DNA from: Tridacna crocea
Lineage: Eukaryota > Mollusca > Bivalvia > Cardiida > Cardiidae
NCBI GenBank assembly: GCA_943736015.1
Contig: OX031072.1
Location: forward strand, 6,475,501 to 6,539,500
DNA length: 64,000 bases
Direction of reading: 5' to 3'
This document shows, piece by piece, positions 16,229-48,508 of the stretch. Each line of letters starts with the position of its first letter. Within the stretch, counting starts at the first letter, position 1. The position numbers were made by a program, and so were the translations under genes. Under the pieces are notes generated by a model. The model had not been told where the DNA came from, searched no databases, and was given only the letters and a program-made list of their open reading frames with translations.

Positions 16229-16610
16229 TTTCCCAAATGCAGCACTTGAGTATTTCCCAAATACAGCACTTGTTTATCAAATACAGCACTTGTTTATTTC
16301 CCAAATGCAGCACTCAAGTATTTCCCAAATGCAGCACTCGAATATTTCCCAAATGCAGCACTCGAGTATTTCCCAAATGCAGCACTTGAGTAGTTCCAAA
16401 ATGCAGCACTTGAGTACTTCTAAAAAGCAGCACTCGAGCATTTCCCAAATGCAGCACTTGAGTATTTCCCGAATGCAGCACTTCAGTAGTTCCAAAATGC
16501 AGCACTCGAGTATTTCTCAAAAGAAGCACTTGAGCATTTCCCAAACGCAGCACTTGAGTATTTCCTGAATGCAGCACTTGAGTATTTCCCGCATGCAGCT
16601 CTTGAATTTT
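16229..16610 (+). repeat. 24-bp minisatellite, about 16 units
   Basis: Unit CCCAAATGCAGCACTTGAGT plus ATTT, with variants (cccaaatacagcac, ttccaaaatgcagcac). Period 24 keeps frames open on both strands, producing repetitive ORFs that I do not regard as genes. Confidence 0.92.
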
Positions 16611-18617: not shown

Positions 18618-18800
18618 TTATAAACCGCCACCTCCTGAAGTGCCTGTGTCACCTAACACAATTTTCTTGTAGAATTTATTCATCTGCTCCAAAAAGATGA
18701 AGGTCAGTACAGTGTGGGGACCCAGTCTAGCGAAATATGGCGTGAAACCCTTCCATAAACTAAACACACCTTCCTTTGATGTGACCTTCATAAGGACATC
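18618..18800 (-). CDS. SLC25A11: SLC25A11 exon 10 (stop codon)
   Basis: Encodes residues 259-318 with LWKGFTPYFARLGPHTVL, helix 6, then a short Gly-rich tail (SGGGGL) and TAA. The tail is a little longer than the human one. Acceptor CTGCAG. Confidence 0.95.
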   Translation of the reverse strand, partial: DVLMKVTSKEGVFSLWKGFTPYFARLGPHTVLTFIFLEQMNKFYKKIVLGDTGTSGGGGL

Positions 18801-21800
18801 CTGCAGAATGGACAAATAAAAAATTGTTTCTGTAAAGATATTCTGACATTTTGATATAAGGGGAAAAAAATATTGCTAGATTTTTAGTGAAAATTTTGAG
18901 TCAAATAAGGGGCATCACTGTGTTAAAAACACTGATGGTTAATCTAGCCCTTTTGTATAGATTTACCTTTTAAGTATCACTGACCTATCGAAGTTTAACC
19001 CTTTACCAGATGACAAAATTTTAGCTTTGTCCAAACTGAATGCATTTACAGATAATAATTTCAATGGGGCTTCAATGCTACAAGTTTTCTTTGATAGGGT
19101 AGAAATCATTGTGGGAAAGGGAGAAAATGCTGGTTACCAGCATTTTCTTCTTTTCCCTCAATGTTTTTAAACGGCTTGTTTCCCAGGGTCATTTAAAAAG
19201 CGGCATTGTACAAAGAAGGATTAAAGTAAATATCTCCAGTAATAACACTTAACAGAGATATTGTAAAAATGTCAAACTTTTCATAAAGCTAAAACAAGAC
19301 CAGGGCTTTGACAACAGCTCCTCATTTTCCTTTAAAACAGCCGAGCTGACAAAGTAACAACTTTTCCATCCTAATTTAGAAATGTGTGAAAAATACTGAC
19401 GACTAACTCTGGGTGCAATCTCGCAGGTAAAACAGTTGACATAGTTCTTGTCTTATATATCAGGTTACAGAAGACCAGTCTGTCAAACTCAAAACGCCAC
19501 TGTATATAAGGTATGACTACAAAATCCCAACTTATAACGACCCTAAGAAAGGTTTTTGAAAACATTATTGGAAAAGGAGAAAATGCTGGTAACCAGCATT
19601 TTCTTCTTTTCCAACAATGTTTTCTGCCCTGTCAAGAACAAACTTCATCCTAATGGCTACCTTTAGTTTGTCGTCAGCAGATATTTTCAATTTGGACAAG
19701 TCTAAATTTTTTTCCTTTGGTAAAGTGTTAGTGAAGGAATATATAAGGATTTTTTTTTTTAAACTTCAGAAATGGTATGGGGAGAAAAAGCTTTGAACTG
19801 CAATGGCCAGAAAAGCAATGAAGGAAACTTACAAGGGCCCCTTTATACTCTGGTTTTCCGTCTATAATTTTCATGTTCTGTATCCTGAAAGTTACAGAAT
19901 AAAAGAACTTTGTCAATTTCATTTTGATGTTTTACAATATTTTTTCATACTATATTTCATATTCTAACATGACTTGAATTTGGCTCAACGTAATTGTGGT
20001 TAAACCTAAATCATTCTATATAGAGTGACACCATTCTATATAAGAAATATATCATTCTTTCTTAAATAAGAAAGCAAGTTATTGAGTTGAATATAATTTT
20101 CATCCATGTTTTTACAGTAAAGGCTTGGTCAGACCAGCTAATGGACATGCAGAATTTGATTATCTGTTTAGCGTTTACAAAATTCATCTTCGCAGCTCCA
20201 GGCTCATGCGATCGGTATGTCAGCAAATAAGACACATAGTGACTGAACGAGTACCACAAATATAACGCACATTTACCTGATGTAAACCAGATGAAAAACA
20301 GTCTATTAACAGGTATCACCATATGAGCAAGAGACTTGTACCAGATAAAACTGAAGTGCAAGGCATGAGAACCGAGCAAAACATATGATTAACAGCAATT
20401 TAACCAACACCAATGTACAAGGAACGTAGCAGTCACATGACATGCCAAGGGAACAAATTGTTAGATGTATCCAAAGTCTATCATTTGCATGTCTCTGACC
20501 ATTTTGTTTGGGTAAATTTTTTAACATGCCCAAAACTTCCCACCAGACGGAATGGACATCGCCGGACAAAGACGGACAGGTAGTGGATTCATGGATAATA
20601 AACGGACATGAAAGGTTAAAAGTAATTTTAACTGTAACACATACATTAGCTTGGTGTGACCAAGGCTTAAGTAAGAAGTTGTTTTCCTTTCAACATGAGT
20701 TGGTACCAGCATTTTCTCAATGTTTTCTACTCTACCATAAACATAATTCAATTCTTAAGCCAGCACTCTTTTAATGCTTTCAAATTGGGCAAGTCTAAAA
20801 TTTTTTTGTTTTGGTAAAAGTTTATTCCCTGTTTAAGATCTGCAAAAGACTATTCCAGATTTCCTTCAAATATTCAACTTTGCCTTTAAGTATTTTAAAT
20901 ACGCTAAGTAAAAATAATAAGCATTAAGAAAACAACTTACCTCGTTTTAGCTATATCTACAGGCATAGAGAAAAACGTTGTGACAAATCCACTGATCATA
21001 CTTGCAACAAAATGTAAAAATAGCCCTTCACTAAAATAGCCTGCAATAAGAAACAAAAAGTCTTGTAAAGGGAAAGATATTACAGTATAACCTGTGTAAG
21101 AAACCACCTGCCTCAACTCTATACTAAACACTACAATTTTTAGATTCTTCCAAATCATAACAAATGCAGACAACAGGAAAAAATGTCCCCTAAACAATGG
21201 GACCCTTCTCTGAAAGGGTGCAAAATGTGCTTGTTATCAACATTTTCTCCTCCCACATTTTCAATGGCTTTCTTCTATGGCATACTATATATCATAGTAT
21301 CATTTGGTAAACGGACAAAGATGGATCTTGTGGGTAACAGGGATAAAATGGTAGAAGCAGGCCTCTCACATCAATGTTTACATGTGCCAGTCCCAAAATG
21401 GGCGCAGTCAATCTTTGGGAGCATCAATTTTAATGTATTGGTTAAGACCTTAATATACAATGTAGAATTTGTTTCAAAAAGTTTCAAAGTTCACTTTCTT
21501 CGGGCCATTACAAAGCAGTATTGTGTAGTATATGGTTAACCCATTACCAAACAATCCCTACTTTTGACACTCCTGAGAAAGAAGCCTTTAGAAAACATTG
21601 TGGGAAAAGGAAAAAATGCTGGTAACCTGCATTTTCTCCTTTTCCCACAATGTTTTCTACCCTTCACATAACAATTTTCAAATATTCAGTCACTTTTATT
21701 TTGTAGTCTGCATGTGCTTTCAAACTGGACCAGTTCAAAATATTGCTGTTTGGTAATGGTTAAGGCAAAACTAGCAAACATGGTAACCAGCATTTTCTCC

Positions 21801-24800
21801 TTTTCCCACAATGTTTTCTACCCTTCACGAAACAAATTTCAAATATTCAGTCACTTTTATTTTGTAGTCTGCATGTGCTTTCAAACTGGACCAGTTCAAA
21901 ATATTGCTGTTTGGAATGGATAAGGCAAAACTAGCAAACATTCCTCAGTCACATACCTGTGTTTTTCAAAGCCTCTTTAGCCTGTGAGTATGATGCTAGT
22001 TGAGCTGCATTTACAACCATGGCTCTGATCACAGTTGGACCACAACCCTGTAGTATGATAGAAATATGTTTATAACCCTTTACTCCCTAGATACTCATTT
22101 ATACGCATTGCTTGTAGGAGCCTATGGAAAACATTGTGGCAAAAGGTGAAATTGCTCGTGACGAGCAATTTCACGTTTTGCCACAATGTTTCCTATGCTA
22201 TCAAAAGGTGTTACATACACATAATAAACTGCTTCATCCTTGCTGTTATTTTGGGTAAATTAGAGATACCATAGAAATGCCTTATAGGGTAAAGGGTAAA
22301 GGGTTGAGATAGAATGAAGCATCATTATGGTGGAGAAAATAGGAACTTGAATTGTCAAAGACTGACATATCATTCTCTCCTCATCCCCCACAGTGTGTTG
22401 GCCATTTGGTCACTAGACTTGCAAAAGTTTGAAAGGGCAGTGTCTCCTATCATCCTTATTTCTTTGTTACACAGGAAATTTTTAGACTTGTCCAAATTGA
22501 AAGCATTTGCACAGAACAAATTTACTGTGGCTTACAGACATTTTTTTTTCTCTGAAAGCATGGAAAGGACTGCAGGAAAATGCTGTGATTGAATTATTTT
22601 GGAAGTTACTGACATGTCTCTATTTAGGAGATTCTAATAACAGCAAATCTTCGAAAGTCTTAAAAACACAAGAATGGGACCAAAAGTATTAACTCTTTAT
22701 CAAACGACTAAATCTTAGACTTGTCCAAACTGAAGGCATTTGCCCAGGGCAAATTCAATGTTGCCCAAAATTTTACCACACGATGATGACTTTTAACAAC
22801 CCTGGGAAAGAAGCTTTATGGGAATAAGAGAAAATGCTGGTTACCACCATTTTCTCCTTTTCCGTAAATATTTTCTAGCCTTTCAAAGAAAAATTGCACC
22901 ATTTGAGCCACAATAAATATTGTAGTCTTCAAATGCTTTCACTTTAGACAAGGCTAAAAAATTTTCATCTTGTAAAATGGTTAAATGGTCAGATTTGTCT
23001 TTGAAAGATTTGAAAAAAATGGTGGAAAAAGGAGAAAATGATGGTAACCAGCACTTTCTCTTTCATCCACATTTTCAGAAGCTTTCTTGCATTAAAACTC
23101 AGGTTGTGGGACAAAGGACAAAGACAAATTTGTGAAGCTTTTGATTGATTGATTGATTGATTGCTGAATTGATTGACAGATTGAATGAATGATGTTTTAT
23201 GCTGCATTCAACATTATTTTAGTCATATCACTGCGATAACTCAGATTTATGTATTTCTGGGATTTTAGCAGTACTAGGCTGTGGCTTTGATGTGTCTTGC
23301 CCAAAGACACTCCTACAAGAAACCAAGACATATTGAAGCTCAAAACAGTGGCCTCCACACAGGATCCCACAAATTAGAGAAGCAACCTTTCAAACAAACT
23401 AGACAACAACAAAAACAGATCAAATAACAACAGTTACCCTCCACAATGTAGCAATCCCTTCCTCTTTTGTGATGCGTACAAGAGCATTAAATACACCTGA
23501 ATAATTTCTTCTCTGCTCTGGTGGTAGTCTGTAACATAAACACAGATCATTAGCCCCTACTTTGAGGTCTACAGTCCCTAACTCAATGGTAAACACTGAA
23601 GCTTTCATAAGGGCTATTTGGCCAATCTTGGTACCTGCTGCCTTTTAAGCCTTTCCCAAACGACAAATTTTAGACTCTTCCAAATTCAAAGAGATTGCAG
23701 ACGACAATTTCAAATTTGATAAAAATGGCAGAAAGTTCTCCAAATGGGTAGAAAACAGTGCAGGAAAGGGAGAAATTGCTCTTTCGAACAATTTCTCCTT
23801 TTCCCAGTGTTTTCAAAAGACTTGTACTGCAGACACGTAAAAACAAGGGCTTGTTTGGGAAAGGATTTATATCAGAGATGGGGGTCCGTTGACTCACTAA
23901 CTTATCAGTAAATAATATGTAACGCTGATGTTTTAGTACAGACTATTCGGACAATCTGGGCAGCTTCCATCTTTTAATGTGAGAGTTAGGTAGACCTTTC
24001 TAGGGTAACTGACTGATTAACTGTATGGTTTTTAACCATTACTACAAAATACTGACTTTTAATGGCCCTCAGGAGGAACCCTTTGAAAACATTGTGGGAA
24101 AAGGAGAAAATGCTGGTAACCAGCATTTTCTCCTTTTCCCCACAATGTTTTCAAAGGCTTTCTTTCTAAGGGTTGTCAAAAGTCAGGATTGCTTGATAAA
24201 GGGTTAAACGAAGACAGGACAAAATGCTGATAGCCTTTTCTTTTTCCACAATTTTATATTCTGTCTTTATGACACAATGCCAAGCTTTAACGACCTTGAA
24301 AAAGTAAATTAGAAAGCTTTTGAAAACATTGTAAGCAGCATTTTCTCCTTTTCCCAAAAGGTTTTCTATCCTCTCAGAGACAAATTTCATAAATCGATAC
24401 ACCTTTAATTTGTCGTCTGCAAAAGCTTTCAATATGGACCAGTCTAACATTTTGTTGTTTGGTAAATAGTTAAGACTGGTCCAAATTGTAGGCATTTGCA
24501 GATAATAAAATAAATGCCACCCTTTTCCCATAGTGTTTTTGAAAGGCTTCTTTTACAGGGCCATTCAAAGTCAGGACTGTGTGGTATAGGTGTAACCGGA
24601 CTATATATACCGGGTTTTATCATTCTGTTTTCTTAAGTACATGTATTACATTTTGCGCGGGTTCGTGTCATGTGACTGTCTTTGTTTGTCGTTTGTTTGA
24701 AACAGAAGTCCACATCGCATGAGTTGCGAAGTTATTTATTTTATGGTGGAAATCTTGATTTGGTTTGTAGCAGCGTTCGTACATTCCTTTTAGTGTGTTG

Positions 24801-27800
24801 AAAATGTCTGTATGTCGTTTTCGCGAAGATCCATTGAATTTAAAGAAGTTTGACACCGTTTTGTGAAATGTAGTCGGTTTCCGCGGCCTTAGCTTACCCG
24901 CCCGTCACTGCCTGAACCTAACATTTTGTTTGCATGTTTTTAATTAATTTGCATTGTTTTACAGGTAACACTACGCACGGAGAGATTGGCCTTTTGTGTA
25001 GATCTACAGTCAGTTCCTAAAATTGGTAAGATGCACTAGATTTTGTAAATGCTGTTTTATCGATTGATTGACTTGTTTTATTGAAATACTGCGTAGAAGG
25101 ACTGTGCTAAGGTCTGTTGTATTATTTTATTTTCAGATTGTAAAAAAAAAACATAGATGTTACATGGAGAAATACACTCTTGAGATCTGACGTACATGTA
25201 TTAAGTTCATCATTTCCCCCATTTCCCCAAATTCCGGACCAAACACCCAACACCCTTTAACCTTCCATACCGGGTCAAAATTGCAGAAGGGTACAAATGG
25301 CGCCCACCGTGTTGTGAATTTGGACAGTCAACATAGAAATTGGTGGAAAACAGCTATTTTCATCCAAACAGAAGTGACTGTGATTAGTTGTGTGATTTGT
25401 GATCAAAGTGATTTGTGATTATTGTGATATGATAGTGTTTAAAATAAGGATTTAGGATTGATATGTAGTATACTGGTCTATCCCATAGATAGATGTAAAG
25501 GTATAATGTAGTCGGGTACAGGTATTTGGTGATATATCGTGCGGCCTTATCGACATGTGGTTCGGTAGCTCAGTTGGTTAGAGTGCATGAACGGTATTCC
25601 TGAGGCCCTGGGTTCGAATCCCGGTCGAGCCGCGATATATTTTTCACCACCTGTTACATTTGGCGCCCAACGTAAATAACCCACTTATTAAGAGAGATAG
25701 GGTAGTAGTGATTTAGAGATTCGTGGACGAATCTTCATGTTGTGGGGAAGTATGTAGTATACTGGTCTATCCCATAGATAGATGTAAAGGTATAATGTAG
25801 TCGGGTACAGGTATTTGGTGATATATCGTGCGGCTGTATCGACATGTGGTTCAGTAGCTCAGTTGGTTAGAGTGCAGGAACGGTATTCCTGAGGCCCTGG
25901 GTTCGAATCCCGGTCGAGCCGCGATATATTTTTCACCACCTGTTACATAGGATTAAATAAAACTTAACAGCAACACATCAAAGACTCTACCTTCCGTCAG
26001 AGGTCATGCGGATTAATGAGATTTCAGCAGGTGTTCCAACAAAGGCTGCTATACCTCCAGCCGTCAATCCAAGGGCAAGCTTTGTGACAAACGTTGGGTT
26101 TTTACCATCTCTACAAAACATATCATAATTATCTTCTAAGCAACAGGAAAGTAAAATCCATATTTGTAGATGGTAATCTACCAAATCCATATATATTTTA
26201 AAATCCATATTAATAAAGCACACTGAATCCAAGACAAAACTTCGGTTACAGAGCTCCAGATGGAGTGATTTTAATTTCAAAGTTGAAAATATGAATTATT
26301 CTTAACTAAACCCTATGTTGTGGGTACTCATTAGAATCATCTCATCACGAAGATTCTGATGAGTACACACAACATAGGGTTTGGAGGAGAAATAATGGAT
26401 TAAGAATGCCTGACTCTCTCTTATCTGGACCTCTGTGGTTACCTAATTAACTAATTAAAAATTTTCAGCCTGCACAGTAAATAACTGTGTAAAACTCTTT
26501 CCATAACAAAGACAACACCAGAAGCTTTAGTGGACAATGTAGATCAAGATCAGACTACACAAAATGTGCAGTCTTATCTCTGATCTACCATGTTCAATGC
26601 TACATTCTAGATTATGATCGAACGTACCAATGAAATGTATATCTAGCTTTCAGGAAAATGCAATTTATTTATTCAGTAGTGGAAGAGCTAATGCTATTGA
26701 TCAGAATGTCCTTGCATAGCAGGCACTGTAGATAAAAGATCAGACTGCATACTTTATGCAATCTGATTTTGATCTACATTGAGTGCAGTGTTCTGAAGAA
26801 TGCATTGTTCTAGAAAACAGATAAGCATCTTTCCAACAAAAGCATTCAGTTTAAACTTGTGGACACTAAAATCATCCCTAGATCTCCTTGGCTGCCTTTT
26901 GCTTAAATCTTCACCACACAACAATTTACTAAACTTGTCCAAATTGAAAGCACTTGCAGACAACAAAATAAACCTAATTCAAATCCTGAAATTTGTTCAC
27001 AGGAAGGTAAAAAAATGTTGTGGAAAAATGAAAAAATACTAGTTACCAGCATTTTCTCCTTTTCCCATAAAAGGGTTTAACCCTTTACCACAAAATTACA
27101 GGTTTTAACAACTCTGGGAGAAGGGCTTTTGAAAATATTTTTGGGACAGGAGAAAATGCTGGTAACCATTTTATGCTTTTTCCTCAAAGTTTTCTACTCT
27201 GCCATGTAAAAGTCATGTCCTTTGTGTCACATTTTTTTTGCTTTTAACTTGGACTATTCGAACTTTTCTTGTTTGGTTAGGAGTTAAGTCTTTTATTACG
27301 TTGTTTAATACCATTCCCATATTATTTTAACTATATCTTGGTGGCAAAATGAAGAAATAATGAAAAATATCAAAGATATACTAACTTTGAAACATATTCA
27401 AACAGTGATGTGTATATTCCTAGACGAGTTGTAGTATATGTGGCCTGTCGTAGTAAACCAGCACTCAAGCTGAAAATAAACATATAAAATAATCAATGCG
27501 ACATACTACATAATGAAACTAAGAGCTGTCACTGAATGTGACTTAACACCCCTGCAAGTGCTTTGACAGAAACAGGGAATTGCTAGTATTTTGTACACAG
27601 ACAGAGACATGGGCAGACACACAACAATGGATGCACAGAGAGGCTGATTCCAGTATACCCCTGAAAACATTCATTTTGCGGGGGATATAAAAAGGCAAAC
27701 ATTTCTTTTTCAAGATTTGATGAGATGTTTTCTTTTAATATCCCAACATCATAGTTTCAGATAAGAGGGAGTGATGGTATTCTAAATCCATTATATCTCT

Positions 27801-30800
27801 TTGAAACCTTATGTAGTGGGTAATCATTATAATCATCTCAATGAGACGATTCCAAGAAGTTCCCACAACATAGTGTAGAATAATCAACACTTTACCCCAT
27901 AAGGCATTTCTATGGTATCTCTAATTGATAATAAATAACAGCAAGGATGAAGCTGTTTCTTATGTGTATATGACGCCTTTTGATAGCATAGAAAACATTG
28001 TGGCAAAAGGTGAAATTGCTCCCCCGAGCAATTTCACCTTTTGCCACAATGTTTTCCAAAGGCTCCTACAAGCAATGTGTAGAAATGAGTATCCATAGAG
28101 TAAAGGGTTAATATTTTTAAGTTTGAAATCAAATTCACTCCCTCTATCTTGAGCCCTACCAACATGTTTTCAGTGTGGTCTGGAGGGGATGGGAGCTTTT
28201 TATGATGCATCAATTTATTTAGGCAATCATGACACGCAATGCGAAGACACATGAACAGTACGCTTTACAGAATACTAATGTTAATTTTAGAATAGTAGAC
28301 AAGGAGAATGCAGAGACAACAGGATGAAAGTATGTGCAACGGCTGCTCTAGGATCGTCCTTTCTTCAAATGCATTAAACCTCCTTTTCACAGAACATGGT
28401 TCTGATTTGAACAGGTTATCTTACCCTGTATAAAGAGCAAAAAGTCCTTCCTCCTGAACAACAGATCTTAGTGCATGAAAACTTGTTTTATGTGCTCTCT
28501 GACCTCCACCCACACCTGAAATGAAAAATACAACAGTATTTGAGTACCTTATATTACCAAATAAATACATGTACATTTTGACAATGGAATGACTCAACCT
28601 CTTACAGATCATCACATTTTTATGACCTGAAGGGGGATGAACAGAAATTTTCAGAAAATATAGGAAAAGAAGGGAATGCTTGTTACCAGTCTTTCCTCCT
28701 TTTTCCAGCATTTTCTATCCATTCGAAGACAAATACTACCGGTATCACTTGAGCCACATGATGCGAATTATGTTTTGATGAACCTATGATCCTGCCTACC
28801 AATTCAATCTGATAAAGAATTTTAAGACATTCAATTTAATTCAAATCTATTTCTTTAACTCTTTACCAAACGACACAATTACAGACTGGACTAAATTGAA
28901 AGCATTTGCAGATGACAAAATTAATATGACTGAAAAATTGAAATCTGGTTTTTGAAAGGTAGAAAACATTGTGGGAAAAGGAGAAAATGTTGGTTATTAG
29001 CATTTTCTCCTTTTCCCACATTGTTTTCTATAGGCTTCTTTTTCAGGGGCATCAAAAGTAGAGATTATGTGGTAACGGGTTAACTCATTATCACACAATC
29101 CTGAGTCCAGAAAGTTATAAGAGATTTTTACAAGTATAAAAGTAAAGGATTAAATGTTAATATACACTGATTGTAAGAATAAAACTTTGACAACAAACCA
29201 CTCATCTGCATTCTGTTCTTGACCAAATCCAATGGCTGAACAAACAGGGTTGCTGCCATCCTGTAAATGAAAATGTGATCAGGTTCATCACTCAATTATT
29301 TAACCCTTTACTCCATAGATCAGGGGTGTGGAATTCCTACGTCCGACTCGGGTAAATTTGACGTCGGACAAGTGGCTTTTTGCAATCTACTTGTCCGCGG
29401 ACAAGTAGAAAACGAGAGGTAATTTGGAAGAAAAGATCATTATTAAATAACATTATCCTTGTGAAACAGATATGTTCTTTCTACAAGAACAAGAACATTT
29501 TTTAAATTGAATTCTGATAAACTGTTCCCTGATATCTGGAATCAGAAAAAGCCCCAATATTTGGCTGACTCTGACTTTATCTCCTACGCAGGCTTTTTTT
29601 ACTGCGCTGCAGTGCGGCCGAAATGTTGTGGTTTCTTGGCTCCATTTGGTTTGTTTAATGGAGGCAACAATAACCGAATCGAGTTAGTCTATTTTTTTTT
29701 TGCACATGATTACACCGCACATAGACTAGATGCGGTTGTCATTCAATCTCAATCATTCAAAATTAAATTCTTCTTTGTCGTTTGCAAGAACTTACAGCTG
29801 ACAAAAGAGAAGTTGTCTAAATTTAACACTGTGGAACACATTCTTACTCGGTCGCAGTATTTGAAAGAAAACCAAACAAGCTGTATCCATGTAAAACATG
29901 TCAAGAACCGGGAAACATTACAAACAGTTTGTTAAAAGGGCTGTAGATGATAAAAGCCAGTGCAACCGTTTTTCTTTCGGCGTGAAATTCTTTGCAGATC
30001 GATCTGCAGGTAATCAACCATCCGCTTTCTGAGTCTCAATCTGAAGTGTTGGACATCGCCGATCTCCCGTTGTCTGAAAACTAGACCGTTATTATTACTG
30101 CGCATCATGCAAACTCTACATCTCCAGACACAATAACAATAGTGTAATTGTTGAATCTTTCTCAATTATTAAATTCCTGCACCTTTCTATTTACTGTACC
30201 TACTGTACAGTGCCATTATTTGTTAAATTGATGTACCTTGAAAGTCAGTCTGATTTTTCATAATCATCATTAAAAAGCCAAACAAAGCAAATTCAAATAG
30301 TGAAGAGATAATAATTATCTACAAACTACATTCAATTAGGTCTTTGAATGCTATATAAAATTGTTTTGTTTTGGACAAGTAAGCTTCTCTGACGGACAAG
30401 TAGATTTTTTAGATTTACTTGTCCATGGACAAGTAGAAAATTTGAATATTTCCACACCCCTGTAGATACTCATTTTGACGCATCAACAACAGGCAGCTTT
30501 TGAAAACATGGTGGGAAAAGGAGAAATTGCTCGTAACGAGCAATTTCTCCTTTTCCCACAATGTTTTCCACTCAAACAGATATTTGTATCCTCATTTGTC
30601 CATATTTTTGACATCATATCTTTATCTGCTGCTGAAATGGAAGAGTCTCAAATTGGCATAACAGGTAAAGGGTTAATGCCCAGTTTTCCCTAACCCCAAA
30701 ATTTTGTAAATGACGCCCCCCCTCCCCCAAAAGAAAAAAAAAAGTATATATATACGGGTACTTACTTTTATAGATTTGAGGAGGGGTTCATGTAGGTAAG

Positions 30801-31711
30801 AGGCTTAACTGTTTATCAGATGACAAAATTTTTACTAGTCCAAATTGAAAGCATTTGCAGACGACAAATTAAACGTAACTCAGAAATTGAAATTTGTTTC
30901 AGCAGGGTCGAAAACATTTTGGGAAAAGGAGAAAATGCTGGTTACTAGCATTTAGAAAACATAAGGAACTGAGAAAATGCTGATTACCAATATTTTCTCC
31001 TTTACCCACTGTTTCCCATTTTGTTTTCCCCACTGTTTCAAAGGCAAATCCTATAATTTAAGCCTCATGACTTCATCCCCTAGTTTTCCAAAAAAGACAA
31101 GTTAGTAAGTTTGTCTATTATTGTCCCTTAATAGCAGAAACTGAAAAGTGCTATGGCCATGTCAATCCACATAAGTCATGGTTACTCATCTTTACTTTGA
31201 CATATTTATCCATCAGGTCAGAACAACTCCGGCTGAAACAACTCTGGGCTAAAATGGTAAGGATTTCATGGCAGTCAGCCAGGTAAATGTCTGTCTGACA
31301 TTGATCTACTGATCACTACCTTAGGAAGTGACAACTGACCCCCCTCCAAATTCCAAATATCTTTACATTTGTATTTTCTATTGAGGCAAAATATAAACAA
31401 CATTTAATCTGGCAACGTTCGGGTATCAAATTCCTTTACGAAAAAAAGCCTGACAAACCTTCGCTCTTTCAACAGAAAATGCTTGATGATAGATAATCTG
31501 TCATGTGGGTGGGGTACAAGGTTATGTCAGAATTCAACCTTTATTTGCATGCATACAAAATTAGATTCAGATGGTGTGAATAATGTCCTCGTACTTCTTA
31601 TTCAATTAAATATACATTTCTCTTTTACCCTGCTGAGCCACCGAAAATAAAGCGCACTCCCTTCGGAATCGTCACTGGTTTCGAATCTCCCGATTTCGTG
31701 GGGGCAGCCAT
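18618..31711 (-). CDS. SLC25A11: Mitochondrial 2-oxoglutarate/malate carrier, 10 exons, complete
   Basis: Inner mitochondrial membrane antiporter exchanging 2-oxoglutarate for malate, part of the malate-aspartate shuttle. Joined in order, the exons are 31711-31629, 29260-29199, 28515-28425, 27469-27386, 26110-25991, 23528-23438, 22047-21957, 21040-20941, 19884-19833 and 18800-18618. They total 957 nt, giving 318 residues plus a TAA stop, with every intron GT-AG and all phases consistent. The three mitochondrial-carrier repeats carry the signatures PLDLVKNR (37-44), PAEISLIR (134-141) and PVDIAKTR (234-241). The PAE form in the second repeat is typical of SLC25A11. RQATYTTTR (86-94), RAMVVNAAQ (185-193) and ARLGPHT (282-288) match the family's conserved central-cavity segments. 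Human SLC25A11 is 314 residues, so the length is normal. The start has a strong context (A at -3, G at +4). No frame breaks were seen. The gene spans 13.1 kb only because its introns are full of transposons. Confidence 0.96.
18995..19224 (+). mobile_element. T1 element in SLC25A11 intron 9
   Basis: 230 bp with both TTAA ends. Antisense to the gene in my orientation convention. Confidence 0.88.
19510..19732 (-). mobile_element. T1 element in SLC25A11 intron 9
   Basis: Palindrome has a paired substitution at the stem base (ATTGGAAAAGG with CCTTTT-like CTTTTCCAACAAT on the other arm). Ends decayed (gtaaagtgtta). Confidence 0.8.
19833..19884 (-). CDS. SLC25A11: SLC25A11 exon 9
   Basis: Encodes residues 241-258, IQNMKIIDGKPEYKGAL, the loop after the third signature. 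Acceptor CTTTCAG, donor CTT|GTAAGT. Confidence 0.93.
20121..20667. mobile_element. ~550-bp inverted-repeat transposon in SLC25A11 intron 8
   Basis: AGGCTTGGTCAGACCAGC at the left is matched in reverse by GCTTGGTGTGACCAAGGC at the right, with similarity continuing inward for over 20 bp. The interior holds no recognisable coding sequence. The target duplication could not be fixed. Confidence 0.55.
20690..20825 (-). mobile_element. T1 element, truncated
   Basis: Half palindrome (ggtaccagcattttctc) and A arm with end ttggtaaaagtt. Confidence 0.65.
20941..21040 (-). CDS. SLC25A11: SLC25A11 exon 8
   Basis: Encodes residues 208-241, helix 5 and the third signature PVDIAKTR. Acceptor TTATTGCAG, donor AG|GTAAGT. 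Confidence 0.94.
21114..21313 (+). mobile_element. T1 element, degenerate
   Basis: tcaactctatactaaac start and atttggtaaacgg end. The palindrome is largely lost. Confidence 0.6.
21536..21763 (-). mobile_element. T1 element in SLC25A11 intron 7
   Basis: Complete, 228 bp, TTAA at both ends. Confidence 0.87.
21621..21942 (+). repeat. ~160-bp tandem duplication of a T1 tail plus flank
   Basis: ggtaaccTgcattttctcc to aaggcaaaactagcaaac is followed by a second copy ending about 15 bp from the exon 7 donor. The unit includes half a palindrome and the whole A arm. Confidence 0.8.
21957..22047 (-). CDS. SLC25A11: SLC25A11 exon 7
   Basis: Encodes residues 178-208 with RAMVVNAAQLASYSQAK, helix 4. Acceptor CTACAG, donor G|GTATGT. 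A T1 transposon tail duplicated in tandem ends about 15 bp downstream of the donor. Confidence 0.93.
22069..22306 (+). mobile_element. T2 element in SLC25A11 intron 6
   Basis: tATAACCCTTTACTCCC start. The end has a duplicated ggtaaagggtaaagggttg. Palindrome centre TCGTGACGA. Confidence 0.85.
22689..22984. mobile_element. T1 arm A fragment followed by a T1 element
   Basis: 22689-22768 is a plus-orientation A arm. 22770-22984 is a minus-orientation copy with a shortened stem, ending ggttaa. Confidence 0.75.
22990..23120 (+). mobile_element. T1 element, 5'-truncated
   Basis: Stem gtggaaaaaggagaaaatg with a diverged second arm and B arm tail. Confidence 0.6.
23143..23185 (+). repeat. (TTGA)n simple repeat
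   Basis: About six uninterrupted ttga units followed by imperfect ones. Confidence 0.85.
23438..23528 (-). CDS. SLC25A11: SLC25A11 exon 6
   Basis: Encodes residues 147-177 (PPEQRRNYSGVFNALVRI to TLWR), the second matrix helix. Acceptor TGTTACAG, donor AGG|GTAACT. Confidence 0.94.
23645..23869 (+). mobile_element. T3 element, complete
   Basis: T3 has the T1 stem base with a T2-like tip (GGAGAAATTGCTCG) and its own arms (agactcttccaaa; gacttgtactgcagacacg). This copy's tip is decayed (ctctttcgaac). Close relative at 47834. Confidence 0.82.
24032..24207. mobile_element. Fully palindromic T1 derivative (two B arms)
   Basis: 176 bp between TTAA ends. Left arm AATACTGACTTTTAATGG mirrors the right B arm. 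Second example of the form seen at 15365. Confidence 0.8.
24264..24473 (-). mobile_element. T1 element, internally deleted
   Basis: One palindrome arm shortened (aaacattgtaagcagcatt). The A arm end ttggtaaatagttaa is intact. Confidence 0.75.
24470..24590 (+). mobile_element. T1 element interrupted by the LTR insertion
   Basis: TTAA plus A arm, a deleted palindrome, B arm to gtggtatagg. Its last bases attaa reappear at 25952-25956 after the insertion. Confidence 0.72.
24591..25295 (+). mobile_element. Solitary 5' LTR (705 bp) of a larger retroelement
   Basis: Begins TGTAACC, ends GGGTACA, has a TATA-like actatatata near its left edge, and is followed by AA and a primer-binding site. Some 165 bp of leader follow before the TRIM starts. 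No gag-pol and no matching 3' LTR are present in the window. Confidence 0.5.
25298..25311 (+). other. Primer-binding site (Lys tRNA type)
   Basis: TGGCGCCCACCGTG matches the complement of the 3' end of animal tRNA-Lys(CUU) at 13 of 14 positions and lies 2 nt after the LTR end. Confidence 0.6.
25464..25658 (+). repeat. TRIM 5' LTR
   Basis: 195 bp, TGTAGTATAC to CACCTGTTACA. It carries the tRNA-like segment in its right half. It is directly preceded by ggattgata, which does not match the sequence after the 3' LTR as a simple 4-6 bp duplication. Confidence 0.85.
25558..25632 (+). ncRNA. tRNA-like cassette in TRIM 5' LTR
   Basis: Seventy-five nt fold as a cloverleaf: acceptor TGGTTCG with CGAGCCG, a perfect A box TAGCTCAGTTGG (25566-25577), and a perfect B box GGTTCGAATCC (25611-25621) in a good T arm. 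One mismatch lies in the anticodon stem. The anticodon position reads GGT with C instead of U before it, so it is not a normal tRNA. TTTTT at 25640-25644 could end a pol III transcript. Confidence 0.75.
25661..25673 (+). other. TRIM primer-binding site (tRNA-Lys CUU)
   Basis: TGGCGCCCAACGT is the exact complement of the last 13 nt of animal tRNA-Lys(CUU) including CCA. Confidence 0.75.
25742..25750 (+). other. TRIM polypurine tract
   Basis: GTGGGGAAG immediately upstream of the right LTR, the usual place for the plus-strand primer. Confidence 0.6.
25753..25947 (+). repeat. TRIM 3' LTR
   Basis: 195 bp, about 98% identical to the 5' LTR. Its final CA abuts TAGGATTAA, the resumed end of the interrupted T1 element. 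Confidence 0.85.
25847..25921 (+). ncRNA. tRNA-like cassette in TRIM 3' LTR
   Basis: Same cassette with a fully paired anticodon stem (CAGGA with TCCTG) and intact A box (25855-25866) and B box (25900-25910), but one acceptor-stem mismatch. TTTTT follows at 25929-25933. Confidence 0.75.
25991..26110 (-). CDS. SLC25A11: SLC25A11 exon 5
   Basis: Encodes residues 107-147, helix 3 and the second signature PAEISLIR. Acceptor TTTTGTAG, donor AG|GTAGAG. The compound LTR insertion in intron 5 ends 43 bp from this exon's donor side. Confidence 0.94.
26308..26383. repeat. Hairpin repeat
   Basis: AACCCTATGTTGTGGGTACT and its reverse complement surround a short loop. Related single arms occur at 27812-27880 and 9098-9130. 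Confidence 0.75.
26525..26790. repeat. GATC-rich palindromic repeat, two copies
   Basis: gtagatcaagatcagactgc and its mirror gcagtcttatctctgatcta (26539-26590), and a second at 26730-26780. The same family occurs near 718-780, 1405-1465, 13826-13910, 15860-15905, 49940-50000 and 61803. Confidence 0.65.
26903..27080 (+). mobile_element. T1 element, 3'-truncated
   Basis: A arm and palindrome present. The B arm is reduced to aaagggtttaa. Shares TTAA 27077-27080 with the next copy. Confidence 0.75.
27077..27287 (-). mobile_element. T1 element
   Basis: TTAACCCTTTACCAC to taggagttaa. The palindrome is shortened on one arm (ggtaaccattttatgc). It ends about 100 bp from exon 4. Confidence 0.78.
27386..27469 (-). 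CDS. SLC25A11: SLC25A11 exon 4
   Basis: Encodes residues 79-107 with LSAGLLRQATYTTTRLG, the second transmembrane helix. Acceptor TTTTCAG, donor AA|GTTAGT, chosen because it alone keeps the phase of exon 5. Confidence 0.9.
27884..28111 (-). mobile_element. T2 element, complete
   Basis: Left end decayed (TCAACACTTTACCCC), right TTAA intact. Stem tip reads CTCCCCCGAG, so the loop has diverged while both arms stay paired. Confidence 0.87.
28425..28515 (-). CDS. SLC25A11: SLC25A11 exon 3
   Basis: Encodes residues 49-79 (VGGGQRAHKTSFHALRSV to LYTG), the matrix loop and amphipathic helix of the first repeat. Acceptor TTTCAG, donor GG|GTAAGA. Confidence 0.93.
28595..28745 (-). mobile_element. T1 element, heavily decayed
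   Basis: gaaggggga-type B arm and a weak palindrome. No termini. Confidence 0.5.
28855..29083 (+). mobile_element. T1 element, complete
   Basis: Ends TTAACTCTTTACCAAAC and taacgggttaa. Palindrome centre altered to GGTTATTAGC. The right TTAA is shared with a B-arm fragment (29080-29155). Confidence 0.87.
29199..29260 (-). CDS. SLC25A11: SLC25A11 exon 2
   Basis: Encodes Gly28 to Gly49 (split codons at both ends) including PLDLVKNRMQMSG, the first carrier signature. Acceptor TTTACAG, donor G|GTTTGT. Confidence 0.92.
29321..30462. mobile_element. hAT-like non-autonomous DNA transposon
   Basis: 1142 bp, starting CAGGGGTGTGGAAT and ending ATTTCCACACCCCTG, flanked by a 5-bp duplication TAGAT (29316-29320, 30463-30467). 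Subterminal motifs ACTTGTCCGCGGACAAGT and ACTTGTCCATGGACAAGT are palindromic and occur near both ends, as expected for transposase binding sites. The ends resemble hAT elements, though classical hATs make 8-bp duplications. It interrupts a T2/T3 element and lies in SLC25A11 intron 1. Confidence 0.75.
29507..29935 (+). other. Unassigned open frame inside the hAT-like element
   Basis: A 142-codon open frame (MNSDKLFPDIW...) occupies the left half of the element. I see no zinc finger, DDE residues or hAT dimerisation motif. It could be a remnant, captured sequence or chance. Confidence 0.2.
30804..31045 (+). mobile_element. T1 element with a second partial palindrome
   Basis: TTAACTGTTTATCAGAT start. 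The first stem breaks after ttactagcattt, and a second stem (tgagaaaatgctgattac) follows. The B arm is lost. Confidence 0.7.
31629..31711 (-). CDS. SLC25A11: SLC25A11 exon 1 (start codon)
   Basis: Encodes residues 1-27 plus two bases of Gly28, starting MAAPTKSG and ending in FIFGGSA, the start of the first carrier helix. The donor is GG|GTAAAAG. It is followed in the transcript by a 2.4-kb intron that holds a hAT-like insertion. Confidence 0.93.
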
Positions 31712-31723
31712 CTTGATAGTCTC

Positions 31724-31738
31724 CGACCTTGACCTTAA
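31724..31738 (-). promoter_or_regulatory. Overlapping ERR-type half-sites upstream of SLC25A11
   Basis: Reading towards the gene, TTAAGGTCA is followed, with an overlap, by TCAAGGTCG, 13-27 bp before the ATG. TNAAGGTCA is the half-site bound by estrogen-related and related orphan nuclear receptors. These regulate mitochondrial energy genes in other animals. Whether it lies in the promoter or 5' UTR is not visible. Confidence 0.4.
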
Positions 31739-31749
31739 ACAGCTAAGTT

Positions 31750-32740
31750 TGTTTTGCACGTTTTGTGTAAATGCACATTTCGTCCGTAGCCTTAATCTAT
31801 ATCAACGACTCAGGTTTCCTTTCCCGATTTTCGTAAACTGCAAAGAAAAAATATCATATGTCGCTTAAAGTTATTTTCAAACCTTTATTTTTGCTAGCGA
31901 CCTACGGTATTCTATTTTCAAAGAAGCCCGTTATGAGTGAATAAATTGTAAAAGATAATTCAGCTGAACATTTCATGATCTGAATTTTAAATGACACTCT
32001 TTATCAATGCAGATTGCAGATTTTGTAACTTTCTGATTGTTCGAAATTGAAAGTAGATGGTCAAAACCGAAAGTAGGACAGTAGGGTTATGTCTAAACCA
32101 CAACTTAACCGCATTACGACCTGTAAACGTTGCCTTTGTCCAAAAGCAGACGACATAATTATTGTTTGAACGATCTTTTTTTCAAAATTATTCTTCAGGG
32201 TATTTTTGAACGGGCTGTTCACATCAAACTTCAAAAATTATTTATCACCGAGTTCAATAAAGCAATAATTCACATATATATTATGAAGACAAAATATTTT
32301 TTCTCCATTAAGAAAAAAAGAAATCCCACATGGCGTTTCAACTGGGTTGGGGTGATGTTGTAAAATGTCCCAAAGTGCCTTGAGATCGCAGGAAAAATCA
32401 GATAATTCCCCCCCCCCCCCAAAGATGGAGATGTCACGACATTCTCACCACTACCAACATGTTGCAACGGAGGTCCTATGGCATGTTTTTGTGTTCCTAG
32501 GGAGTTCGTCTTGGCAATTCTCTGCAGTTAGTGCTTCCACTGCATGCGCTGCACCTTCACGGTGCTCGAAGTGCGTGCACTGGGCACCTTCTGTGCACTC
32601 TGATCTGAATCTACCCTATCCAAAAAAGGTCAATGAGTCATACTTAAAAGCCTGAGATTTTTTTTTTAATTTCTGTGGTGAAACAAATGTGCCATGCTCC
32701 AGCAAAAGTGGGCTTCAATTTATCTGTTTTCCATGATATT
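31750..32740. other. Upstream of SLC25A11, no gene recognised
   Basis: Contains the putative promoter near the gene, then AT-rich sequence, a poly-C run (32409-32420) and a GC-richer stretch 32490-32600 without a recognisable product. Confidence 0.5.
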
Positions 32741-47833: not shown

Positions 47834-48057
47834 TTAACCCTTTCTCAAACAAAAAATTTTAGACTCTTCCAAACTGAAAGAGTTGCAGACAATTTTAACT
47901 TTCATAACAATGGCAGAAAATTATCCAAATGGGCAGAAAACACTATGGGAAAAGGAGAAATTGCTCGTTATGAGCAGTTTCTCCTTTTCCCACAGTGTTT
48001 TCAAAAGACTTGTACTGCAGACACGTAAAAACAAGGGCTTGTTTGGAAAAGGGTTAA
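47834..48057 (+). mobile_element. T3 element at a verified empty site
   Basis: 224 bp. Inserted at ctggccttTTAA. Unit 2 reads ctgtcctttttaagagctg. Stem GGAGAAATTGCTCG with one mismatch at the tip. Confidence 0.87.
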
Positions 48058-48283
48058 CTCTTTACCAAACAACAAAATTTTAGACTTGTCCCAATTGAAA
48101 GCAATTGCAGACAAAACAATAAACATGACTCAAAAATTGAAACTTGACTTAAGAAGAGTAGTAAACATTGTAAGAAAAGGAGAAAAAAAAGCTGGTTTCC
48201 AGCATTCTCTCCTTTCCCACAATGTTTTCAAAAGCTTCTATCTCAAAATTGTAAAACACCAAGGATTGTTGGTAAATGATTAA
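48054..48283 (+). mobile_element. T1 element, complete
   Basis: Second of three head-to-tail elements joined by single TTAAs. Stem widened by an A run (ggagaaaaaaaagctgg). Confidence 0.87.
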
Positions 48284-48508
48284 CTCATTACCACATGAGA
48301 CAATTTTGGACTGGTCCAAATTGAAAGCATTTGCAGACGACAAAATGAAGGTGACTGAAAAATAGAAATTTGTTCTGGAAAGGGTGGAAAACACTGTGGG
48401 AAAAGGAGAAAATGCTGGTTACCAGCATTTTCTCCTTTTCCCACAGTGTTTTCAAAAGTCTTCTTTCTTGGGGGCGTCAAAAGTAGGGATTGAGTGCTAA
48501 TGGGTTAA
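48280..48508 (+). mobile_element. T1 element, complete
   Basis: 229 bp, perfect ACTGTGGG stem. Very similar to 34124-34352, including acatgagacaattttggac, so probably a recent relative. Confidence 0.9.

Follow-up and report, generated by a model that had tools for sequence, protein, structure and literature searches.

The 64,000-nucleotide stretch of the Tridacna crocea genome analysed here (contig OX031072.1, C17:6475501-6539500; genome 1.05 Gb in 31 contigs), which we call the window, carries the gene for the mitochondrial 2-oxoglutarate/malate carrier, SLC25A11, whose exons, placed by eye, extend over ~13 kb of the minus strand (18621-31801). In one of its introns, antisense to the gene and ~43 bp from an apparent exon donor site, lie two retroelement parts joined end to end: the 5' part of a Ty3/Gypsy-like element, starting at 24591, and a complete Helenus-type element at 25464-25947, which is a terminal-repeat retrotransposon in miniature (TRIM). 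The original prediction, made from the letters of the window, described the second of these; its limits were right for the mini-element, and it overlooked the chimera; the integrated unit appears to be larger, 24591-25947.

The mini-element is 484 bp long and consists of two long terminal repeats (LTRs) of 195 bp at 25464-25658 and 25753-25947, separated by 94 bp; all features of both elements given below are on the plus strand. The LTRs lie within direct repeats of 198 nt (25462-25659 and 25751-25948, 98% identical), begin with TGTAG and end with TTACA, and differ from each other at 4 of 195 positions, as expected from the ~98% likeness first reported for them. Each contains a tRNA-Thr(GGT)-like cassette, at 25559-25633 in the 5' LTR (A box 25566-25577, B box 25611-25621) and at 25848-25922 in the 3' LTR, followed by a run of five T residues (25640-25644 and 25929-25933) resembling a terminator of RNA polymerase III (pol III). 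Both cassettes are called by ARAGORN, and the covariance search that had been proposed as a check gave Rfam RF00005 scores of 46.7 and 49.2 bits (gathering score 29), with the whole tRNA model covered in each alignment; the predicted tRNA-like cassette with its A and B boxes and oligo-T stop is thus confirmed. The tRNA family is the only one to pass its Rfam gathering score in the window, and 5S rRNA does not. The predicted folding energy of the cassettes is no better than that of shuffled sequences (z = -0.3 and -0.5), and their tRNA identity therefore rests on the family model and on ARAGORN. The two T5 runs are the sole runs of four or more T on the plus strand of the mini-element, a weak depletion, as 4.1% of 655 window stretches are equally poor.

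The internal region starts with a primer-binding site (PBS) for tRNA-Lys, TGGCGCCCAACGT (25661-25673), which is exact in 32 of the 41 internal regions of the family described below and pairs over 13 nt with the 3' end of a host tRNA-Lys(CTT), the one read of five pattern matches. It goes on with a predicted hairpin, GAGATTCGTGGACGAATCT (25716-25734), found in 26 of 30 internal regions, once with a changed loop, and closes with the polypurine tract (PPT) GGGGAAG (25744-25750), exact in 33 of 41. Coding capacity is absent, the longest stop-free frame being 56 amino acids. The TRIM anatomy that had been read from the sequence, with two LTRs, Lys PBS, PPT and no genes, is therefore correct throughout.

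A search of the host genome gave at least 42 matches to the mini-element, with 40 of 1168 first-look candidates scored. We read 41 copies and dropped two, L022 as part of the same array as L020 and L021 as having flanks equal to those of L018; the remaining unread match falls in the L025 array. The final set comprises 39 sites with 80 LTRs, chosen by likeness to the window copy, so that the conservation figures obtained from it are too high. Exact target-site duplications of 4 bp flank 34 of the 39 sites and 5-bp duplications two more, compared with a chance level of 17 matches in 1482 cross-site pairs; the three sites without one are the window copy, L038 (TGTG vs TCTG) and L043. Among the 37 two-LTR sites, six LTR pairs are identical, the median divergence is 1.6% and the maximum 9.3%; two of the 39 sites have three LTRs, and at 17 of the 39 the first LTR is closer to an LTR of another site. 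ARAGORN calls a tRNA in 78 of the 80 LTRs (Thr(GGT) in 68), and a run of four or more T is kept in 78. The A box, TAGCTCAGTTGG, is exact in 75 LTRs and is the second most conserved of 184 windows; for the B box, GGTTCGAATCC, the count is 70 and the rank 78 of 185. Averaged over columns, conservation reaches 0.978 within the cassette, compared with 0.963 upstream of it and 0.954 downstream.

Pattern counts over the whole genome gave 818 cassettes (46-mer, up to 3 mismatches), 271 PBS 23-mers (up to 2 mismatches) and 295 LTR-PBS junctions (30-mer, up to 3 mismatches), and reversed control patterns gave none in each case. If each two-LTR element contributes one junction, ~228 cassettes are left over, a rough figure for solo LTRs, given that the patterns differ in stringency. 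Nine 10-kb pieces sampled from the genome (90 kb) held no LTR match, and scans of a viral collection with the U3 (unique 3') and LTR-PBS patterns found none. The mini-element is thus a dispersed mobile family and neither a chance arrangement nor a local duplication, and the count of copies and target duplications that had been suggested as a check establishes a mobile, multi-copy family. Two kinds of PBS occur within it, CCCAACG and CCCACCG. Among the matches listed, three sites have a cassette spacing of 274 rather than 287-289, all with CCCACCG, which is also found at the usual spacing. A shorter subfamily forms a tandem array at L078 (C6:38343115-38343815), with a spacing of ~238 bp, a different inner part and the PPT GGAGGGGG.

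By its described features, rather than by comparison of its sequence with a published consensus, the mini-element is a Helenus-type TRIM (TRIMp3), a group described by Kojima in 2024 with 51 families in pteriomorph bivalves (PMC10886601). In common with these it is a short gene-less LTR element with an A- and B-box tRNA-like sequence in its LTRs, a PBS and a PPT, and it shares the 4-bp target duplications of Helenus in animals, the solo LTRs, and the Thr-like and Lys-primed character of some bivalve families; seven of the bivalve families are able to encode tRNA-Thr, and tRNA-Lys is among the primers (PMC10886601). Box A (TRGCY...YGG) and box B (GGTTC), by which Helenus is recognised, are both present in the LTRs, as are the other features that could be examined, namely TRIM structure, cassette, PBS with PPT, and 4-bp duplication. 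The original prediction had pointed to plant Cassandra elements and proposed a parallel invention in an animal. The likeness holds, in that Cassandra carries a pol III promoter in the LTRs of a TRIM and forms tandem LTR arrays, comparable with our two three-LTR sites; in Cassandra the promoter is of the 5S rRNA type and the host a plant (PMC7215508), whereas here it is of the tRNA type in an animal. The novelty does not hold, since this tRNA-type parallel was already published as Helenus (PMC10886601). The bivalve element biv-TRIM (Satovic 2019, PMC6934838) is likewise a TRIM, with terminal repeats of 202-218 bp and an inner part of 77-80 bp, but its description sets it apart: a clear PBS is lacking, and a conserved TGATCCCAAAGGAC motif is present in every one of its species except one. 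The motif is not found in the window mini-element at up to three mismatches, and a clear Lys PBS is present instead. Our literature search found no further paper on Helenus or TRIMp3 elements, and none on clam genomes with pol III promoters. Two things are new here: the heterodont host group, as far as PMC10886601 shows, the molluscan hosts in its Table 1 being all Pteriomorphia with no heterodont, and the fusion with a likely helper.

The partner begins with a 5' LTR of 705 bp (TGTAAC...TACA, 24591-25295) belonging to a Ty3/Gypsy-like element of ~10 kb, continues with a PBS, TGGCGCCCACCGTG (25298-25311), and ends with a leader (25312-25461). The limits of this part are well defined by other copies. 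A query of 25080-25440 gave 32 genome matches including itself; with longer queries the likeness starts at 24590 or 24591 in 20 of 22 other rows (the others at 24584 and 24592), and eight of nine other alignments that reach the right limit end at 25461, one ending 1 nt further. The window LTR differs from the 3' LTR of a copy on C9 at 2 of 705 positions. LTR pairs ~9.4-9.5 kb apart are found at five loci (on C9, C16, C5, C18 and C6), all with matching 4-bp flanks as read by eye (ATAT, GTTG, GAAA, GAAG and AGAA). In the C9 copy, a 2.8-kb piece of the interior encodes a Gag with two zinc knuckles (zf-CCHC) and a PNMA match, followed by RVT_1, its best solved match being the Ty3 reverse transcriptase (E = 3e-56); two protease models also matched, both below cut-off. 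The LTR pairs, the 4-bp duplications and, in this one piece of one copy, the predicted Gag zinc knuckles and Ty3-like reverse transcriptase mark the partner as Ty3/Gypsy-like. Its PBS complements the 3' end of a Lys-like tRNA with one exact pattern match in the genome; the gene is incomplete in the fetched piece and was not called by ARAGORN. A tRNA resembling Lys(TTT) lies at L069 (C15:20511450-20511540); it has additional nucleotides behind the anticodon, its 3' end is CACGGTGGGCG, and the piece read, which lacks the 5' end, gave no ARAGORN call.

The two parts together, 24591-25947, are bordered by TAGG on both sides (24587-24590, directly before the start of gypsy likeness, and 25948-25951), and no separate target duplication flanks the window Helenus copy. 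Between the last gypsy nucleotide and the Helenus 5' LTR lies a dinucleotide, TA (25462-25463), equal to the 2 nt between the Helenus PPT and LTR, which are TA in 40 of the 41 internal regions; beyond the position equivalent to 25461 two gypsy copies read ACAGTGAG and the window reads TATGTAG. At sites with a target duplication, that duplication takes the place of TA in front of the element. The presence of TA at the join thus indicates that the join retained the end of a linear Helenus cDNA before trimming by integrase. In a search of the genome, likeness across 25461/25462 was found only in the window itself. The two families also resemble each other at their working ends: both start with TGTA, use GGGGAAG as PPT (in gypsy, AGAGGGGAAG in the one copy read there) and carry TGGCGCCCA in the PBS, and the end GTTACA is found in Helenus and four of the five gypsy copies, the fifth copy and the window gypsy LTR having GGTACA. 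Apart from these ends, the gypsy LTR and leader have no stretch longer than 13 nt in common with Helenus in a sensitive comparison. Two other candidate signals were set aside. A seven-mer, TAGGATT, flanking Helenus was considered as a displaced target duplication, and its upstream copy proved to be part of the gypsy leader. The GTTACA end was considered as a telltale of the helper: GTTACA-NN-TGGCGCCCAMCG occurs at 181 places (224 with CA only), and most of those listed are Helenus itself with the spacer TT.

We therefore favour, at a probability of roughly 0.7, a reading in which the mini-element is a Helenus TRIM with pol III-type cassettes mobilised by a gypsy-type helper, and the window copy is a chimeric cDNA that was joined before integration and inserted once. 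Under this reading pol III would start just upstream of the A box in the 5' LTR, would at least sometimes read past the first T5 run and would stop at that of the 3' LTR; the resulting RNA would measure ~0.38 kb, with the entire cassette as its terminal repeat R. Reverse transcription would be primed by tRNA-Lys(CTT), and a Ty3/Gypsy helper would provide particle, reverse transcriptase and the integrase that makes the 4-bp duplications. In the case of the window copy, a gypsy DNA strand left incomplete at the leader would have been joined end to end with a linear Helenus cDNA before integration, either by a jump of reverse transcriptase between template ends or by host end joining, and the chimera of gypsy LTR, PBS and leader with a complete Helenus would have been inserted once into the SLC25A11 intron, with the 5' LTR of gypsy and the 3' LTR of Helenus supplying the ends for integration. 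For this to happen, the two cDNAs would have to be present together, and the integrase would have to accept a gypsy U3 end as partner of a Helenus U5 (unique 5') end. For this last step, a single integration by the gypsy integrase using one LTR end of each element, the balance tips only slightly in favour.

A literature search for chimeras of this kind gave one close precedent, from Triticeae, where Sabot and Schulman (2007, PMC1950507) describe complex LTR insertions, attributed to template switching, of two fused elements flanked by one target duplication and read as joined before integration. The outer LTRs of those complexes are highly alike, whereas here one is gypsy and the other Helenus.

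Several observations weigh against our reading. Ordinary strand transfer does not produce a composite bounded by LTRs of two different families, as this one is. The match of the TAGG flanks has by itself a chance level of ~0.6-1.1% (0.6% for random 4-mers, 1.1% across sites), and the joint structure is known from one locus and hence from one event, for which an assembly error at the join 25461/25462 is possible. Many elements have TG...CA ends and Lys PBSs, and the likeness of ends is not specific to this pair: GTTACA-AA-TGGCGCCCA is found at 17 of the 100 listed of the 181 places, which is more than this gypsy family explains. Between the two Helenus LTRs of the window we count 4 differences in 195 positions, compared with 2 in 705 between the gypsy LTR and that of the C9 copy (one-sided Fisher test, 0.022), and the Helenus part is thus probably not the product of one textbook cycle of reverse transcription; it may derive from two molecules or from a more complex joining. 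As regards transcription, the middling conservation of the B box adds no support for pol III, and the T5 run behind the 5' cassette should end a pol III transcript early, at ~95 nt, so that RNA of full length could be made only by read-through or from a different promoter.

The last two points lead to the alternative that survives best, namely that the genomic RNA is made by RNA polymerase II (pol II) from U3 and that the cassette is a passenger, a decoy or the source of ~95-nt RNAs only. Besides the kept terminator and the B box, it can draw on a TATAAA-like motif in the U3 of many copies. That motif is polymorphic (GATATAAA in 39 of the 80 LTRs), in contrast to the nearly invariant A box, and 40 of the 41 internal regions have no run of four or more T that could stop pol III. 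The polyadenylation-type motifs AATAAA and ATTAAA are absent from 58 LTRs and 30 internal regions examined, but 639 of 982 window stretches of 195 nt also lack both. The conserved A box and T run, with the variable TATA-like motif, favour pol III as the polymerase that would transcribe Helenus, judged from sequence, and transcription by pol II from U3 seems to us unlikely, at about one chance in a handful.

We regard as less probable still that the gypsy part and Helenus were united after integration, by two insertions followed by deletion or recombination. Recombination between neighbouring elements is a common origin of complex LTR elements, and the Helenus LTR pair does seem older than the gypsy LTR. 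However, such complexes lack flanking target duplications (both points from PMC1950507), and the joint TAGG is not expected from this route. Had Helenus once stood between TAGG sites of its own, GG would precede its TG, where the window has TA; had a gypsy copy been its target, the rest of that copy would follow on its far side, and instead the next ~40 bp run into the SLC25A11 exon.

It is very improbable, in spite of the ARAGORN calls in nearly all LTRs, that the element spreads a functional tRNA-Thr gene in the form of the cassette. In 58 of the 80 LTRs the sequence of the anticodon loop is ACGGTAT, which places a C at position 33; working elongator tRNAs carry U there, and Thr-GGT is in any case unusual in eukaryotes. 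The C in most copies argues against a working tRNA, as does the one broken stem pair in each window LTR (first LTR: anticodon stem, 25588; second LTR: acceptor stem, 25853). Finally, a local duplication of a tRNA-derived short interspersed nuclear element, with no retroelement involved, could appeal to the presence of just two LTR copies in the window and can be practically dismissed: the repeats are not confined to this locus, two-LTR elements being found at 39 sites and 34 of these having exact 4-bp duplications, nor is the tRNA-like part absent from other copies of the LTR (78 of 80).

A pattern for joins between Helenus and a leader matched four places, of which C2:2344085 is the sole one that we call a gypsy join. 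There, on the minus strand, a Helenus inner part and a cassette LTR pass directly into a gypsy-like PBS and leader, the leader being 97% identical over 191 bp (and 99.8% over 852 bp further in) to a copy 5.1 kb upstream. No coding part was recognised in the sequence read at this place; the partner is gypsy-like by its LTR end and its PBS and leader layout, and is an element other than that of the window. At C9:28599681 and C2:25690664 Helenus LTRs are followed by a different leader, common to both by eye, and C6:38343415 was rejected as a join, being the tandem array of the Helenus subfamily.

The host is placed by its gene. The joined SLC25A11 protein has Mactra and Mya as its two best matches, a beetle third, and Dreissena and Mercenaria fifth and sixth. 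In a tree of 22 rows, of which 21 were selected by hand from 120 listed, support is 100/96 for its grouping with these four heterodonts, a level reached by 3 of 19 inner branches, and its place is outside the four on a long branch. The grouping bears out the bivalve host that had been guessed. Elsewhere in the window a palindromic repeat around AAACATTGTGGGAAAAGGAGAAAATGCTGG recurs (for example at 24080-24160 and 47935-48468), and the piece 23900-24760, which includes one such palindrome, gave 13,799 first-look candidates in the genome search. A 24-bp tandem repeat lies at 16229-16605 (~16 copies, 83% matches). Outside the window, the 29-kb contig C31 (L031) has by eye an ND4-like frame under genetic code 5 and is probably a large mitochondrial genome.

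As a Helenus, the element in the window is ordinary in kind; what is unusual is its fusion with the likely helper. The 818 cassettes by pattern count call for caution in the annotation of tRNA genes in this genome. The heterodont host implies, if no heterodont families are known outside PMC10886601, that Helenus is older than Pteriomorphia or has passed from bivalve to bivalve. The T5 run kept in the 5' LTR sharpens the puzzle, common to TRIMp3 elements, of how a full-length RNA gets beyond the first terminator. As to the helper, a Gypsy element has been argued for Helenus in animals from PBS likeness and the length of the target duplication (PMC10886601), and the fusion to a gypsy copy takes that argument further: one chimera, a joint target duplication and similar ends, PPT and PBS point to the gypsy lineage of the composite as the putative helper, name that lineage, and make the question of the helper testable. 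If our reading is true, the composite would be a direct genomic record of what mobilises an animal Helenus and, together with the join on C2, would suggest that Helenus and gypsy cDNAs swap LTRs, so that gypsy-sized elements could gain a tRNA-type pol III cassette in an LTR.

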